Source: a virus
Reading direction: 5' to 3' (one strand)
DNA: 64,000 nt
Virus record (IMG/VR): IMGVR_UViG_3300007512_002205
Location: 1 to 64,000 of that record
The notes below the pieces were generated by a model that was given only the letters and a program-made list of their open reading frames with translations, did no database searches and was not told the DNA's origin. Both the position numbers and the translations under genes were made by a program. Below, piece by piece: positions 16,126-27,113 of this stretch. How positions within the stretch are numbered: the stretch's first letter is position 1; every line of letters starts with the position of its first letter.

Positions 16126-17739
16126 TTATTTAATACCTGACATTGTTGATTTCTTATTCAGAGTCATATCTAATCTCGCAAGCATCTTGGCAACTTCTTG
16201 GTTGTTTTTGTTGCTTTCTTTTATTACTTCCAAGATTCTACTGTTGAATTCTTTTCTCTCTGTTTCTGCCTTAACCCCTAAAAAGCCACCCTCATCTTTC
16301 ACTTTTGTTGTTTCTGCCTTAACCCCTAAAAAGCCACCCTCATCTTTCACTTTTGTTGTTGGCCCCACAAGTTCACCCATCACCTTGCCGCCTTTATCAG
16401 CGGCCCTTGCTACTGTTGAAACTGCCGCTGTTGAAAACCTTTCAACGTTGGCCCCTCTCATGCGTTCTGCCATTGCCTTATCTGCACGCCTTGTAAACTG
16501 TTCATAAAGCAACGAGGCTTTTTGAAGACCTTCAACTTGCTGCCTATGCATTGTTTCTTTTGAGACTCGTTCTATTGCACCCTTATCCATTGTTACCATA
16601 TCATCGGGTGTTGCAAGTTTTCCTCTGCCTTTTCTATGAATCTGCCGACCAACACCTTCTGCTGTTTCAGGATTCAGCATCTTCATAACCTCACCAGACT
16701 GAACTCCCAACGCTTTTGAGATGTCTCCAATGATTGCTCTTTGCCCTTCTCTTCCAAATTTTGACAGACCACCTTTGGCCGCGCCGACTTGTCTAATCAT
16801 ATATGCAGCTCTTTCCGATTGGGTCATGCCCATAAGTTTTGTCGGATCAATTCCTGAACCCAACTGGCTCAAAAGCATGTTCAGCTTTCCACCTGCTTTC
16901 ATACCTTCCATGGTGTCATATTTCTGAACCATGTCTGTCAACTTGCTAATACTCATACCAGAACGCTGTGAAGCTGCTTGCATTTTTGTGAATTCTTTTG
17001 TTGCGTATTCAAGAGAACCTTCTCCGACACTTGTATTAAATCTATCAATGTTTTCTGCGAAAGAAGAAAAGACTTTATTAACACTTTGACCTGTTTCTTT
17101 TGAAAATTTTATCAACGTAGCAGACAAGGTTTTTGTTCTGTCTATGCCTTTTTCAAAACCAGTTGTTAGTTTGTTTGTTACCTTAATAACGTTTTCTGTT
17201 GAAACGCCATACTGATTTAATACCGTTGCGTTTTTCAAGAACCCTTCTCGATGTTTCGGAAAATCTCTCGACAAGTAAACGTTCAGACTATCTGAAAACA
17301 TAAGAGATGTCTTCGTTAACTCCTTATTTGTTCCGCCATACTTATGAAGTCTATGGGTTAATTTGTTTATTTCTTGCTGATATAGTCTTGCCTCCCTTAT
17401 TGGAATTCCAAACGTATTTTGCATTGCAATACGGTTCTTTCCATTCTCAGAAGCAAGTTTTTGTATTATTTGTAGGAGTCCCCTTGTGGTATTCATCGCC
17501 ACATTCCAGAACTGCCCTGTCATAATTTCAGATAAATTCGTAGCAGACTTTACAACGCCAGTAACGCTTCCATCTAAGTCCGCAAAGTCCATTGCGAGGT
17601 CCTTTACTTGATTTGGTTTTTCAACAAACCCTCCAACAAGATTTTTAAGGACGCCACTCACGCTTTTGCTCTTAGAAACCGCAGCACTTACAGCAGGATC
17701 CCCAGATATCGCAGCAACAAGATCAGCTATATCAGCCAT
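16126..17739 (-). CDS. Tail tape measure protein (T4 gp29-like position)
   Basis: The 537-residue protein is mostly helical, without signal peptide, and lies between the tail chaperone genes and baseplate genes, where the tape measure is encoded. It sets tail length and is probably ejected into the host. Sequence includes Gly/Ala/Met-rich helices in the middle (MLLSQLGSGIDPTKLMGM, MIRQVGAAKGGLSKFG). Near residues 460-495 a 16-residue unit TTKVKDEGGFLGVKAE is exactly duplicated. T4 gp29 has 590 residues, so length is comparable. The start follows AGAGGTG. A candidate late promoter motif ends 14 bases upstream of the ATG. Confidence 0.75.
   Translation of the reverse strand: MADIADLVAAISGDPAVSAAVSKSKSVSGVLKNLVGGFVEKPNQVKDLAMDFADLDGSVTGVVKSATNLSEIMTGQFWNVAMNTTRGLLQIIQKLASENGKNRIAMQNTFGIPIREARLYQQEINKLTHRLHKYGGTNKELTKTSLMFSDSLNVYLSRDFPKHREGFLKNATVLNQYGVSTENVIKVTNKLTTGFEKGIDRTKTLSATLIKFSKETGQSVNKVFSSFAENIDRFNTSVGEGSLEYATKEFTKMQAASQRSGMSISKLTDMVQKYDTMEGMKAGGKLNMLLSQLGSGIDPTKLMGMTQSERAAYMIRQVGAAKGGLSKFGREGQRAIIGDISKALGVQSGEVMKMLNPETAEGVGRQIHRKGRGKLATPDDMVTMDKGAIERVSKETMHRQQVEGLQKASLLYEQFTRRADKAMAERMRGANVERFSTAAVSTVARAADKGGKVMGELVGPTTKVKDEGGFLGVKAETTKVKDEGGFLGVKAETERKEFNSRILEVIKESNKNNQEVAKMLARLDMTLNKKSTMSGIK
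16262..16357 (-). repeat. Two exact 48-bp tandem copies in the tape measure gene
   Basis: Bases 16262-16309 and 16310-16357 are identical 48-mers, adding 16 residues in frame. Perfect identity at the DNA level implies a recent duplication or active homogenisation. Confidence 0.95.
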
Positions 17740-17753
17740 TTAAATCACCTCTT

Positions 17754-17766
17754 CGATTATAAATAG
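17754..17766 (-). promoter_or_regulatory. Candidate late promoter motif upstream of tape measure
   Basis: CTATTTATAATCG on the minus strand, 14 bases upstream of the ATG. It is one of five copies of a CTATTTATNWTAG-like motif near late genes. The plus strand reads TATAAATAG, identical to the T4 late box in inverse orientation. Confidence 0.5.
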
Positions 17767-17777
17767 AAACAAGATGA

Positions 17778-17960
17778 TTATTTACCCTCTTTGTGCATCT
17801 CTTCAAGGATCAGATCTCTCAAAGGAATAGGAAGATTGTACGCCTCAGAGAACCCCCAGTTTCCACGGACATTCATCATGAGCAAGCCTTTATAGCAGTT
17901 GTTTAAATGTTCAATTGTCAGGCCAAAAAAAGTTCCGAGTAATCGGCGCACCCCCTTCAT
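17778..17960 (-). CDS. Putative frameshift extension of gp26-like tail chaperone (T part)
   Basis: This 60-residue reading frame overlaps the last 50 bases of the gp26-like gene in another frame and ends 38 bases before the tape measure gene. Its conserved-looking part, GNWGFSEAYNLPIPLRDLIL, follows the shared slippery tract. The nominal ATG at 17960 has no convincing ribosome binding site, so translation by frameshift at the T7 run (17931-17925) is more likely, giving the upstream protein an extension of about 48 residues. The layout matches gpG/gpGT tail chaperones located before tape measure genes. A separately initiated small protein remains possible. Confidence 0.6.
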   Translation of the reverse strand: MKGVRRLLGTFFGLTIEHLNNCYKGLLMMNVRGNWGFSEAYNLPIPLRDLILEEMHKEGK

Positions 17961-18762
17961 TCAAATGTCCACATTTTTTGTTTTCACACTCAAATGAAAC
18001 AACCAGTTGAAAATCTGGCATTTGCCTATCATAAATTTTTCTGAGTTGCCTGGATTCAAAAATCGACATCGTTGTGATGAAGCTTGCAACGAGACTGAAC
18101 TCTGTTTTGCCGTCCACCGACACAATCATGCGGCGATATCTGGTTGTAACCTCTTCTTCGGGGAGTCCTTTCTGAACTCTGCGCCCAATGGAATCCTCAA
18201 TGGCTTTTTCGTCTTCCCCAGTTAAAAGCTTCATTTCAACACGGGCCTTTCTAAGTGGGGATTCAACAAAGAAAGTCCCTCTTTCTGTGTATTCTACACC
18301 ATCATCTTCAGGAAGCTTTTTCATGTGCTTTTCTGAACTTAGGTCCACCATTGCTGTCGCCTCTTTCCCGCACTTTGAACACTCAAGCGGGACTTCATAC
18401 TTATCACCATAAGCATTTTTTCTTGCATTAACAATTATGGCGTTTCGATCTCCCGTTAACAACGTTGATGGATCAATTCTTTTGTCGACAAAAAGACTGT
18501 GAATGAGGCGATCCATTGTCAAGCCTTGTTCTGATAGACTTGGACTCAAAAGAATGTCTTCTTCTCTTGTTGTCATATATTTGATTTCAACGTTTCCTTT
18601 TCGATGAAGAGGGTGTTCTTTTGGATAAAACATTCCTCTCGATGGAAGCTCAACAAAGTCTGTTGGGATTCGATATTGAGATGTGTCTTGTTGCATCTCT
18701 TTATTGATGTTATATTTTGGTTGTTCGACTGGTTTTTGAAACCGATCTTCGTTGTTTCTCAT
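17911..18762 (-). CDS. gp26-like baseplate hub / tail chaperone protein (T4_baseplate family)
   Basis: The 283-residue product matches the T4 gp26-type family: FVELPSRGMFYPKEHPL (36-52), KYMTTREEDILLSPS near 62-76, a LLTGDRNAIIVNARKNAYGD segment near 100-119 and a zinc-like CSKCGKEA near 127-134, then a second CENKKCGH near the C-terminus. In T4, gp26 is annotated as a baseplate hub assembly factor. The gene stands between tube and tape measure genes and carries an overlapping frame at its end, so a tail assembly chaperone role like gpG is suggested by inference. The ATG is preceded by GAGGAAAC. Confidence 0.75.
   Translation of the reverse strand: MRNNEDRFQKPVEQPKYNINKEMQQDTSQYRIPTDFVELPSRGMFYPKEHPLHRKGNVEIKYMTTREEDILLSPSLSEQGLTMDRLIHSLFVDKRIDPSTLLTGDRNAIIVNARKNAYGDKYEVPLECSKCGKEATAMVDLSSEKHMKKLPEDDGVEYTERGTFFVESPLRKARVEMKLLTGEDEKAIEDSIGRRVQKGLPEEEVTTRYRRMIVSVDGKTEFSLVASFITTMSIFESRQLRKIYDRQMPDFQLVVSFECENKKCGHLNEGGAPITRNFFWPDN
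17925..17931 (-). promoter_or_regulatory. Candidate programmed frameshift slippery site (T7)
   Basis: In the gp26-like frame the codons are AAC TTT TTT TGG; the extension frame reads TTT TTT GGC CTG. A -2 slip or a +1 slip on seven T residues joins the two. Position is six codons before the upstream stop. Confidence 0.55.
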
Positions 18763-18773
18763 GTTTCCTCTTA

Positions 18774-19400
18774 TTAGAAGTTAATTGTGAAGCTGCCACC
18801 CTGACCAGAAACTCCTTTATAAAGGAATTCTGCCCAATCGTATGTTATTGTGGCACTAATTGTTGTCAAGGCATCTCCATCATACTTAAGCGCGCTTGGA
18901 GTAACGTCTGTGAACATGGGGTTGTGAAGTTTCCACGATTCATGAACACTTCCGTCTTCACTTAGCGATTCAATTATCACAACACCGGCTGCCAATGTTA
19001 AGTTTTCTTTGGAAAGAAAACGTTCTTCTGTTGATTCTGCATTGTGTGGTTGTGTATACCCGATGTCAAACAACTTGCTCATCATATTTGACATAACAGA
19101 GCCAAAAGCTGCTGGGGTGTAGATTTCATGCATTGTGACTTTTACAGGATTCCAAACCACGCTCTTTGGGAACCTTAATGTGTGTCCCAAAAGGACCTCT
19201 TCTTGAACATCAATTTTATAACTTGGGCGATCGGCGCTTGTCATAAACGCCGCTGGTATTCCGTCCAATCTCAAAAGAAAACGATGCTCTTGTTGAGCAT
19301 CCATGAACATATCCCTTGAAAACAAGGGGGCTTGTTTAATTTCTTTTCTTTTTAAAAGTCTTGAAACAATTGAGGGTGGTTCAAATCCAAATATTGGCAT
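18774..19400 (-). CDS. Tail tube protein, gp19-like (paralogue 2)
   Basis: The 208-residue protein belongs to the T4 gp19-like tube family: EHRFLLRLDGIPAAFMTSAD near 38-57, GHTLRFPKSVVWNPVKVTMHE near 72-92, HESWKLHNPMFTDV near 153-166 and ISATITYDWAEF near 181-192. These line up with the neighbouring 173-residue tube protein, for example LRLxxIPxA, ESWKLHN versus ETWKLHN, and SYDWADI versus TYDWAEF. It has an N-terminal extension of about 30 residues not present in the other copy. One paralogue is probably the main tube subunit and the other a tube-end or minor subunit; which is which cannot be told. Confidence 0.8.
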   Translation of the reverse strand: MPIFGFEPPSIVSRLLKRKEIKQAPLFSRDMFMDAQQEHRFLLRLDGIPAAFMTSADRPSYKIDVQEEVLLGHTLRFPKSVVWNPVKVTMHEIYTPAAFGSVMSNMMSKLFDIGYTQPHNAESTEERFLSKENLTLAAGVVIIESLSEDGSVHESWKLHNPMFTDVTPSALKYDGDALTTISATITYDWAEFLYKGVSGQGGSFTINF

Positions 19401-19407
19401 CTCTTAT

Positions 19408-19929
19408 TTATACAATGTCTGCCCAGTCATACGAAAGCACCAATGTAAGATTAAGAAGTGTTTCGTCTGTGTAGCTTGCCTCGTCAAAATCAATGTCCTT
19501 GACCCATGCATTGTGAAGTTTCCATGTTTCAACAGTGATTCCTTCCGAATCAATTGTCTCAATCGTAACAAGACCAAGGCTGTTCACAGCGCTTCTCTTC
19601 GAAAGAGTCTTTCGAAGATAGTTTTCATCTGAAGCGTTGGGGCTGAAATCTCCTGGCAAAACATAACCCGCTCCACGAACAACATCGAGCAACCTCTTTG
19701 AGGCATCAAGATCAACAAGATCGACAAGTTTGATTGTGATGTCGTTCCATGTAACCTGTCCTGGGAATTTAAAAGTGTGAACAAGGAATTTGTGATTCGC
19801 TGCATCTGATATCGTCATTTTTGGTCTGTTCGTCGATACAATCACAGCGACTGGGATATCAGCCAATCTCAAAATAAATTCATATTTACGCTTAGGCTCT
19901 GCTTGTGGCGACCAAATTGGTGTAGGCAT
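19408..19929 (-). CDS. Tail tube protein, gp19-like (paralogue 1)
   Basis: The 173-residue product has the size of T4 gp19 (163). Core strands are RKYEFILRLADIPVAVIVST near 14-33, HTFKFPGQVTWNDITIKLVD near 50-69, VTVETWKLHNAWVKDIDFD near 130-148, and LNLTLVLSYDWADIV at the end. It lies directly after the sheath gene, in the T4 order sheath-tube, and seven bases before the second tube paralogue. AAGGAGAG lies upstream of the ATG. It is the better candidate for the major tube subunit on length and position. Confidence 0.82.
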   Translation of the reverse strand: MPTPIWSPQAEPKRKYEFILRLADIPVAVIVSTNRPKMTISDAANHKFLVHTFKFPGQVTWNDITIKLVDLVDLDASKRLLDVVRGAGYVLPGDFSPNASDENYLRKTLSKRSAVNSLGLVTIETIDSEGITVETWKLHNAWVKDIDFDEASYTDETLLNLTLVLSYDWADIV

Positions 19930-25648: not shown

Positions 25649-26812
25649 TTACCCTTTGAACAGAGTTATGACAATACCTCTTCTTTTGGCTGACTCTTGA
25701 AGTTGGGGATCATCTATGGTTCTACCGTTGGCGATTCCTTTTAGTCGTATCAAATAACGATTTTTTGGCATAGGCGCACCCCATAACCACCATTCCTTAG
25801 TGCCGTCTGCATATGCAACGGCTGGGCCGTCTTCACGGTGAAGTTTGTCGTTTATATACCATCGCTTTTCGCCGTCTGCATATTCACAAGCTGGGCCGTC
25901 TTCACGGTGTAAAGCATTGTTTTTAAAAAACTCTATATCACCGCGATAATGATCGCGTCTGATGTAAACATCTCCATCTTCTTCTACCCTCGCCACCTGT
26001 TCATAACTGCTTATAGGGTGTTCATTTATGTAATACTCGCCGAAATCTTCAAACAATTCACTTTTTTTAAAAAAATCATTCAATATCACATGATCATCTG
26101 TGTCTCTATAGTTCCCACCAACGAGTTCAAGAGCATTGTCGTTTGGAAGCCTTTCTTTGAACAAAGATTGTTGGTTTTGCCACGCCCATTTCGTCACCTC
26201 TTCTAAGAAATTGGGATATGCCCTTGGATACGTCCTCTTTTCTGGGGCTATAAAGCTTATGTTTTCATCCACATCCCTGAATACTCTCAAGCGAATCCTC
26301 GCAATAGGTGAAATCCCTTCAATCCCACGATCGCGATCTTTAAAAATTTCGTTTGAATCAAGATCAATTTTTTCAAAATCATCAGAGCTTACAAGATAAG
26401 CCAAAACTCCTTGTGCAGCAGCTTCATCCATTGCACAAATAAAATAATTACCTTGTGGCCCATGACAGCTACCAATGCTTGCTTCTGGATGGTCTGACAT
26501 TCTCATAACGTCAACCGGGTGTCTTGAAAAGATTATTGCATGTGTTGTGCTGCCCAGGTCTTTTGCGCCTGCCATAACTTTTTGTGAAATCTTGTTCCAG
26601 TGATCGAGATACAGCTTAATAGTCGACGAATCATGCATATCGGCAATTTGATGAGCGCCAAACACGGCATTAACAACAACTTCTTCATTCTTTCGATAGA
26701 CATCGTATAAAGCTTTTGACCCTTCTACATGTTTTCTGTCTTCTTCGGCAGAATAAAAAGTTTGGCGTAAGTATTGTGCATATTCACTATAAGAGTCTTC
26801 TAGGCGCTTCAT
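25649..26812 (-). CDS. Unknown protein with C-terminal LHREDGPA repeats
   Basis: The product is 387 residues from the ATG at 26812; a GTG at 26908 would add 32 residues but overlaps the upstream gene by 62 bases and lacks a good ribosome binding site. Residues 1-270 form an unrecognised domain (includes HAIIFSRHPVDVMRMS and SIGSCHGPQGNYFICAMDE, with a Ser-Cys-His cluster that could be catalytic or metal binding). Near residues 300-350 two MORN-like repeats occur: NNALHREDGPACEYADG and NDKLHREDGPAVAYADG, each followed by an aromatic W/Y strand. Such repeats are common in phage proteins of unknown function. It lies just downstream of the capsid terminator. Confidence 0.6.
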   Translation of the reverse strand: MKRLEDSYSEYAQYLRQTFYSAEEDRKHVEGSKALYDVYRKNEEVVVNAVFGAHQIADMHDSSTIKLYLDHWNKISQKVMAGAKDLGSTTHAIIFSRHPVDVMRMSDHPEASIGSCHGPQGNYFICAMDEAAAQGVLAYLVSSDDFEKIDLDSNEIFKDRDRGIEGISPIARIRLRVFRDVDENISFIAPEKRTYPRAYPNFLEEVTKWAWQNQQSLFKERLPNDNALELVGGNYRDTDDHVILNDFFKKSELFEDFGEYYINEHPISSYEQVARVEEDGDVYIRRDHYRGDIEFFKNNALHREDGPACEYADGEKRWYINDKLHREDGPAVAYADGTKEWWLWGAPMPKNRYLIRLKGIANGRTIDDPQLQESAKRRGIVITLFKG

Positions 26813-26846
26813 AAGCCTGACCAGCTTATTGAGATATTTGCCAATT

Positions 26847-27113
26847 TTAAGTACCTTCTTTTGTTGACCGCCTTTTTTTGTTTGAACCGTTTTTTGAGAT
26901 CTTACCACTTTTAAGGTCTACATCAAACCCGATAAACTCAAGAAGATTAACCATACGACGGATTCTTACGTCTTCACCTTTGAATGGTATGGCAACACGC
27001 CACTTTCCATTGAAAGCTTTTTCGTAATTTCGCTCTTTGATCCCCAATTCAAGAAACTTTTGAGCTTTCTTATATTCTTTTTCTTCAATTTCAACGATAA
27101 CTTTTGGCATCAT
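26847..27113 (-). CDS. Small basic protein of unknown function
   Basis: The 88-residue protein has an alpha/beta pattern (KVIVEIEEKEYKKAQKFLEL, then WRVAIPFKGEDVRIRRMVNL) and a very basic tail (KNGSNKKRRSTKEG). No family is recognised. Two adjacent ATGs open the frame, with no clear ribosome binding site, and the gene follows the capsid terminator, so its expression may be low or read-through dependent. Confidence 0.5.
   Translation of the reverse strand: MMPKVIVEIEEKEYKKAQKFLELGIKERNYEKAFNGKWRVAIPFKGEDVRIRRMVNLLEFIGFDVDLKSGKISKNGSNKKRRSTKEGT

Follow-up and report, generated by a model that had tools for sequence, protein, structure and literature searches.

A conserved overlap of two frames at a slip site in a probable T4-type tail chaperone gene, with features of a +1 frameshift

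The probable T4-type tail chaperone gene found in the stretch of viral DNA analyzed here (64,000 nt, hereafter the window) has a conserved arrangement in which a slip site near its 3′ end is followed by an extension in a second reading frame. We consider it very probable that this one gene gives rise to a short product (G) and a long product (GT) through a +1 frameshift that is helped by stimulatory elements, and that the products serve as chaperones. A previous sequence-only reading of the window had proposed such a gpG/gpGT-type pair but omitted the strand; all coordinates of the locus lie on the minus strand. The features of the locus, in window coordinates, are as follows.

18762..17911, minus strand: candidate gp26-like short chaperone form (G), 283 aa, with PF12322 and phrog_150 matches
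17931-17925, minus strand: T7 slip run, TTT TTT TGG in the 0 frame
17928-17926, minus strand: putative P-site slip codon, with the single base 17925 passed over
17925-17923, minus strand: 0-frame A-site codon TGG
17924-17922, minus strand: new-frame codon GGC
17924..17778, minus strand: +1-frame extension (T domain), 48 aa plus stop, with two predicted helices
17958..17960, minus strand: sole ATG upstream of the slip site in the extension frame, a rival start that is not conserved in relatives
17957..17950, minus strand: Shine-Dalgarno (SD)-like element AAGGGGGT (GGAGGT), upstream of the slip site
17946..17935, minus strand: tentative small hairpin, CCGA-TTAC-TCGG, immediately upstream of the slip site
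17739..16126, minus strand: tape-measure-like gene, 537 aa, so called by position, the next gene downstream of the extension
18774-19400, minus strand: tail-tube-like gene 1, upstream of the gp26-like gene, with a PF06841 match below the cut-off and a phrog_4542 match
19408-19929, minus strand: tail-tube-like gene 2, upstream of the gp26-like gene, with a PF06841 match below the cut-off and a phrog_4542 match

Profile searches placed the gp26-like protein in PF12322, the T4_baseplate or gp26-gp51 family, with a match that spans most of its residues (56-269; E 3.5e-13, 50.2 bits against a curated cut-off of 24.5), and in phrog_150 (E 9.8e-17); NCBIfam returned no match. The protein also contains two CxxC-type zinc-ribbon motifs. 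As had been read from the sequence, the gene ends just after AAC TTT TTT TGG, its last codons being CGG AAC TTT TTT TGG CCT GAC AAT TGA on the minus strand. The overlapping frame, which is +1 relative to gp26 (equivalent to −2), is open from ATG 17960, which immediately follows a stop codon, and closes at 17780-17778; it encodes 60 aa counted from that ATG and 48 aa counted after T7. The earlier description of this frame as running 48 residues to just before the tape measure gene was thus confirmed, with the next ORF starting at 17739. However, an open frame of 48 codons arose in 3.4% of dinucleotide resamplings, and the minus strand of the window contains 8 runs of T7 or longer. Since such a frame is not rare by chance, the case rests on relatives. 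A search of Rfam found no known RNA families within 17700-18800.

The gp26-like gene lies between the tube-like genes and a tape measure gene placed by position, which is the gene order of G/GT-type systems. The two tube-like proteins matched the tail tube family phrog_4542 with E-values of 5.6e-7 and 6.8e-16, and their adjacency (18774-19400 and 19408-19929) may reflect a tube duplication. The tape-measure-like protein had no family match of its own in the Pfam and PHROGs profile searches; in immuto, SP-15, and LIS04, the gene at this position is annotated as a tail (length) tape measure. We also observed that the tape-measure-like protein (16126-17739, minus strand) carries a direct repeat of ~16 residues, TTKVKDEGGFLGVKAE, twice, and that an ORF among the tail genes (25649-26908, minus strand, GTG start) has repeated HREDGPA motifs near its end.

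Comparison of homologues, which the sequence-only reading had suggested as a check, revealed that both the T-run and the extension are conserved. A protein scan with one query yielded 19 loci, all of which (19/19) agreed with one another in the phase of T7 and in the frame of the extension; they include one near-identical assembly (L001) that differs from the window by 2 mismatches in 8849 bases and has an identical T7. An alignment scan yielded at least 600 relatives, 80 of which constitute set A. We then searched with an extension-domain profile built from eight sequences, from which the window and all 80 set-A loci were excluded, and the best match fell in the +1 frame in 81/81 loci (the 80 of set A and the near-identical window copy, the latter with an E-value of 1e-3), with a single stray match in another frame (E 0.93). 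For further analysis, the 80 set-A loci were combined with 13 distinct earlier loci into a 93-locus set, from which nine near-duplicates among the 19 loci of the single-protein scan were kept out. Moreover, 11 of 17 records were taken, the rest being the same or sister phages, and L215 was left out as too short. Among loci from bacterial MAGs, 9/10 had the T domain in the +1 frame and the tenth was truncated before the site; in the more distant clade of SP-15, LIS04, and GXN1, read by eye, the domain is also in the +1 frame. The relatives share what characterizes a G/GT pair, namely, a slip site near the 3′ end and a conserved extension in another frame. The T domain bears some likeness to DUF6760 (PF20546), which 14 of 24 extensions of relatives matched at E ≤ 1 (best E 1.7e-4); the same profile scan gave no match for the window's own extension.

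In all 93 loci, the final slip codon was TTT or CTT and the next base was T or C. Specifically, we found TTT TTT TGG in 73 loci, TTT TTT TAC in 8, TTT CTT TGG in 5, TTC TTT TGG in 3, TTC CTT TGG in 2, and TTT TTT CGG and AAC TTT CTA in 1 each. In set A, the A-site codon was TGG in 78/80 loci, compared to 17 of 21,075 codons (0.08%) elsewhere in the set-A genes, an excess that selection for a slow A-site codon would produce.

Next, we examined candidate stimulators around this site. An SD-like 8-mer (duplex energy of −6 or lower) was present upstream in 70/78 distinct loci, with its start mostly at −23, −30, or −33; in 38 of these 70 loci, it began 23 nt before the slip hexamer. Within the 42 nt upstream, Glu codons that precede Val were GAG in 54 cases and GAA in 1, versus 35 and 72 elsewhere (Fisher p 9.5e-18), and the SD-like energy fell below the synonymous-randomization null (mean z −1.59), although these and the other synonymous and enrichment tests reported here are inflated because the loci share ancestry. 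These comparisons make strong synonymous selection on the SD-like element a well-supported, if sequence-based, conclusion. With respect to the hairpin, stems of ≥5 bp that end ≤6 nt from the slip site occurred in 29/78 loci, compared to 8.3 ± 2.5 under the synonymous null (maximum of 16 in 200 runs), and folding relative to the same kind of null had a mean z of −1.42 over 86 distinct sequences. A constant gap between the SD-like element and the hairpin was not found (7.3 versus 12.4 nt); rather, an SD-like element located farther away accompanied longer stems (5.74 versus 4.58 bp, p 9e-4). However, 27/78 loci lacked any stem of at least 4 bp, the hairpin of the window itself (MFE −4.1) was no stronger than the synonymous null (p 0.38), and covariation between hairpin columns was weak, with the best pair reaching z 3.33 where permutation gave at most 3.13 (100 runs) and few other pairs standing out. 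For these reasons, a stimulatory role of the hairpin appears only partly supported.

The site resembles that of prfB (RF2), whose +1 site is CUU-UGA-C and whose SD-like element lies ~3 nt before the slip codon. Both have a YTT P-site codon followed by T together with an upstream SD-like element, the CTT-TGG-C variant of the phage sites is one base apart from CUU-UGA-C, and the P-site tRNA can re-pair one base downstream in 93/93 loci. In contrast to prfB, the A site holds TGG, TAC, CGG, or CTA and no stop codon, and the SD-like element is located about 20 nt upstream of the slip codon, and a hairpin often separates the two.

From this arrangement, we infer that the shift takes place and that only a fraction of ribosomes make it. 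The majority would terminate at 17911 and release the short gp26-like chaperone (G), while a minority, with tRNA-Phe on the TTT that precedes TGG, would slip one base forward (TTT-T) and then read GGC. The +1 slip would add the 48-residue T domain and thereby produce the long form (GT). Likely stimulators are the rare TGG codon, the upstream SD-like element, and, in part of the relatives, the small hairpin at the mRNA exit side. If the lambda gpG/gpGT analogy holds, the tape-measure protein would be coated by many copies of G and few of GT, with T recruiting tail-tube subunits.

Other branches of the gp26 family show related arrangements. In a cyanophage-type set (80 of 276 relatives), all 80 loci had a T TTT TTC site with the domain in the −1 frame; the SD-like element started 15-17 nt upstream in 41/52 distinct sequences. 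In S-PM2, the annotated "gp51" (L034:1191-1364) is the −1 extension of gp26, and ORFs labeled "baseplate hub assembly catalyst" at these coordinates and in two other records (L198:3214-3375 and L203:3193-3372) likewise appear to be −1 extensions and not free genes. By eye, we read −1 sites in the Straboviridae ValKK3, avDM12, and S13; in Astolliot, phiN3, and N34; and in RAS14, XacN1, LR756511, Phosso, and Atu_ph07, and saw no clear slip site at the gp26 end of phiMAM1. As deposited, IME-SM1 (L197) breaks the −1 rule, with gp26 continuing in frame and the T domain in another frame; its gp26 end has one T fewer (GATTTTTCGG), which may be an error or a real variant. In Cygsa01 and BX-1 (L199 and L201; Ackermannviridae), a TAATG at the gp26/T junction suggests that reinitiation has replaced frameshifting.

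T4 itself has two genes and, unlike the window, no T-run at the end of gp26. PF12322 covers residues 1-206 of gp26 and 1-201 of gp51, and a profile of the cyanophage −1 extension matched residues 209-245 of T4 gp51, in a tiny target set, with no above-threshold match to T4 gp26, gp27, gp28, or gp29. RB43 is similar, with one gene resembling gp51 and a second that is gp26-like. A gp26-family profile, of which the tested sequences were themselves part, detected a single copy per genome in 13 frameshift genomes but two in T4. Similarly, the record to which the window belongs (G000; 121,143 bases and possibly incomplete) has one gp26-like copy and not the two-gene arrangement. In an unrooted tree of 50 rows, the window belonged to a +1 clade comprising 22 rows (support 100/99). 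SP-15, LIS04, and GXN1 formed a second +1 clade, adjacent to a −1 clade of large phages, and gp51 of T4 grouped with that of RB43 (100/97). The three states require at least four changes on this tree, with starred branches alone forcing fewer (1 for +1 and 2 for −1). These patterns suggest that frameshifting is the common state across the gp26 family and that the two genes of T4 are a later replacement by duplication, the ancestral state being an inference because the tree has no root.

Two further records extend these observations. L217, from a bacterial genome, contains a PF12322 protein (L217:871-1626; E 2.3e-9) with an in-frame DUF6760 (E 1.4e-6), so that, unlike in the window, the long form needs no frameshift; the gene comes right after a gp19-type tube gene (L217:344-850) in a contractile-injection-like locus. 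In L216, a short cysteine-motif protein without a T4_baseplate match (L216:823-1194, minus strand) lies downstream of a tube-like ORF and is followed by a separate DUF6760 stretch (L216:647-811, minus strand).

Several alternatives to a +1 ribosomal shift were weighed against these data. Pairing on T7 would equally permit a −2 ribosomal shift, for which the tail gene of phage Mu is a precedent according to the relevant passage of a review (PMC5009743), or slippage of RNA polymerase on the T-run, and LIS04 and SP-15, taken alone, are compatible with either direction. However, the run is broken in 11/93 loci (TTTCTTTGG, TTCTTTTGG, TTCCTTTGG, and AACTTTCTA; TTC-TTT-T, TTC-CTT-T, TTT-CTT-T, and AAC-TTT-C), which represent seven set-A lineages with a mutual gp26 identity of at most about 52%, plus L021 and L022. 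Because re-pairing in these variants works at +1 only, and is kept throughout, we prefer +1 and reject the −2 shift and transcript slippage, which fail there and seem very improbable; of the "−2 or +1 slip on T7" proposed earlier, it is the +1 option that stands. A homopolymer assembly error or a decaying fused gene has a negligible probability: T7 is indeed a homopolymer run, and IME-SM1 differs by one T at a −1 site, but two assemblies (the window and L001) agree and the frame relation is the same in all 93 +1-type loci examined, even where there is no run. The T domain might instead be a separate small protein with an independent or coupled start, at ATG 17960 or by termination-reinitiation. 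Since that ATG is present, the window alone cannot settle the matter, and the earlier statement that the frame "cannot start well" has to be corrected for this codon; what backs it is the absence of an evident ribosome site at 17960 and the relatives in which start codons are missing altogether. In relatives, annotators list the extension as separate ORFs, some in-frame ATG occurs in 43/93 loci, and the TAATG overlap of Cygsa01 and BX-1 would allow coupling. Nevertheless, 50/93 loci have no ATG in the extension frame, and the ATGs that do occur are scattered, with no position common to most loci (the commonest are 7 nt and 10 nt past the gp26 stop, in 16 and 9 loci). Between the opening of the frame and 30 nt past the gp26 stop, 12/93 loci lack ATG, GTG, and TTG altogether, as do the extensions of 18/80 loci in the −1 clade, while in L002 and L019 a stop precedes T7 by 8 nt and no start follows until 103 nt after the T7 start. 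An independent start would, furthermore, make conservation of the slip site needless. Reinitiation was rejected as a general explanation, although possible in Cygsa01 and BX-1, and we regard a separate T protein as quite improbable.

The frameshift could also be real while gp26 and GT act as something other than tape-measure chaperones, e.g., a minor structural component of the baseplate hub, a reading that we consider unlikely. PF12322 and PHROGs label the family as baseplate or baseplate hub, and some T4 genetic work, as summarized in one part of PMC3004832, places gp26 in the hub; yet the same part of that paper counts both gp26 and gp51 among the hub assembly chaperones, with gp51 not in the particle, and papers that cite Vladimirov et al. 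(2022) credit that study with identifying the T4-like chaperone. The gene order and two-form design, moreover, match lambda. The fused protein of the window, modeled from residue 46 on and including T, had a pLDDT of 88 and a pTM of 0.77, with the T domain predicted at lower confidence as two helices (238-253 and 267-279 in the numbering of the fusion). Sequence comparison found no meaningful PDB relatives, and a Foldseek search of the PDB with this model gave no match at E ≤ 0.001, only unrelated ones. In a second fold comparison, 3FGX (Z 5.2) ranked ahead of the HK97 chaperone 2OB9 (Z 4.9, rmsd 4.3, 95 aligned) and the next structure (3.3), although a Z near 5 can reflect a common arrangement; both top structures are termed tail chaperones in the pertinent text of PMC9603447. 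We take the modeled likeness to HK97 gp13-like tail chaperones as suggestive, not decisive. Taken together, the gpG/gpGT-type reading is supported by the tube and tape-measure gene order, by the in-frame domain of T4 gp51, by the single gp26-like copy in each of the 13 frameshift genomes versus two in T4, and weakly by fold.

The previously proposed idea that gp26-like proteins are the T4-type chaperones likewise gains support, but it is not new, having already been put forward by Vladimirov et al. (2022), according to the papers that cite it. Per the passages that describe that study, its chaperones come in short and long forms, with polyT −1 slip sites in some: according to the PRFect paper, some T4-like phages have both a short gene and a longer, fused one, and the Adele paper refers to the study for −1 signals of the polyT kind in chaperone genes of T4-like phages. 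The protein family is the same as here (PF12322), and the title of the 2022 study makes the case for a mechanism different from frameshifting. A 2016 NAR review (PMC5009743), in the section concerned, describes G-T frameshifting as widespread "except T4." The systems attributed to Vladimirov et al. shift −1 at T TTT TTC, whereas the window's clade would shift +1 at YTT-TGG. Like lambda gpG/gpGT, the window has the gene just before the tape measure, a shift near the 3′ end, and a short and a long form, but the lambda shift is −1. In the Mu tail gene, the new frame is also +1 relative to the short gene, although given as −2, and in the haloarchaeal HSTV-2 (an archaeal myovirus) a +1 shift is described as very likely, a likeness in the direction of the new frame (both per the corresponding entries of PMC5009743). 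Thus, the chaperone identity, the two-gene form, and the −1 sites are known or likely known, while the +1 variant with a YTT-TGG signal in a T4-type chaperone appears to be new, in that the open-access literature searched did not describe any +1 shift for gp26-type genes, which is not proof of absence.

More broadly, we put forward only tentatively, as a possibility with less than even chances, that these sites form a large, as yet undescribed viral class of +1 recoding (YUU-UGG-C, a far-upstream SD, and a hairpin between), within a family that switched several times between +1, −1, and duplication and in which T4 is the derived exception. If so, the recoding hairpin would fold at the mRNA exit and either set the spacing or push the ribosome forward, and the class would serve a big T4-related clade (at least 600 relatives, 93 of them examined) in making its chaperone pair. 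Apart from this possibility, the loci provide many natural variants of one +1 site, with which the bacterial rules for +1 shifting (A-site codon, SD distance, and upstream hairpin) become directly testable, and they correct how short ORFs labeled "gp51" or hypothetical are read, probably across hundreds of phage genomes.
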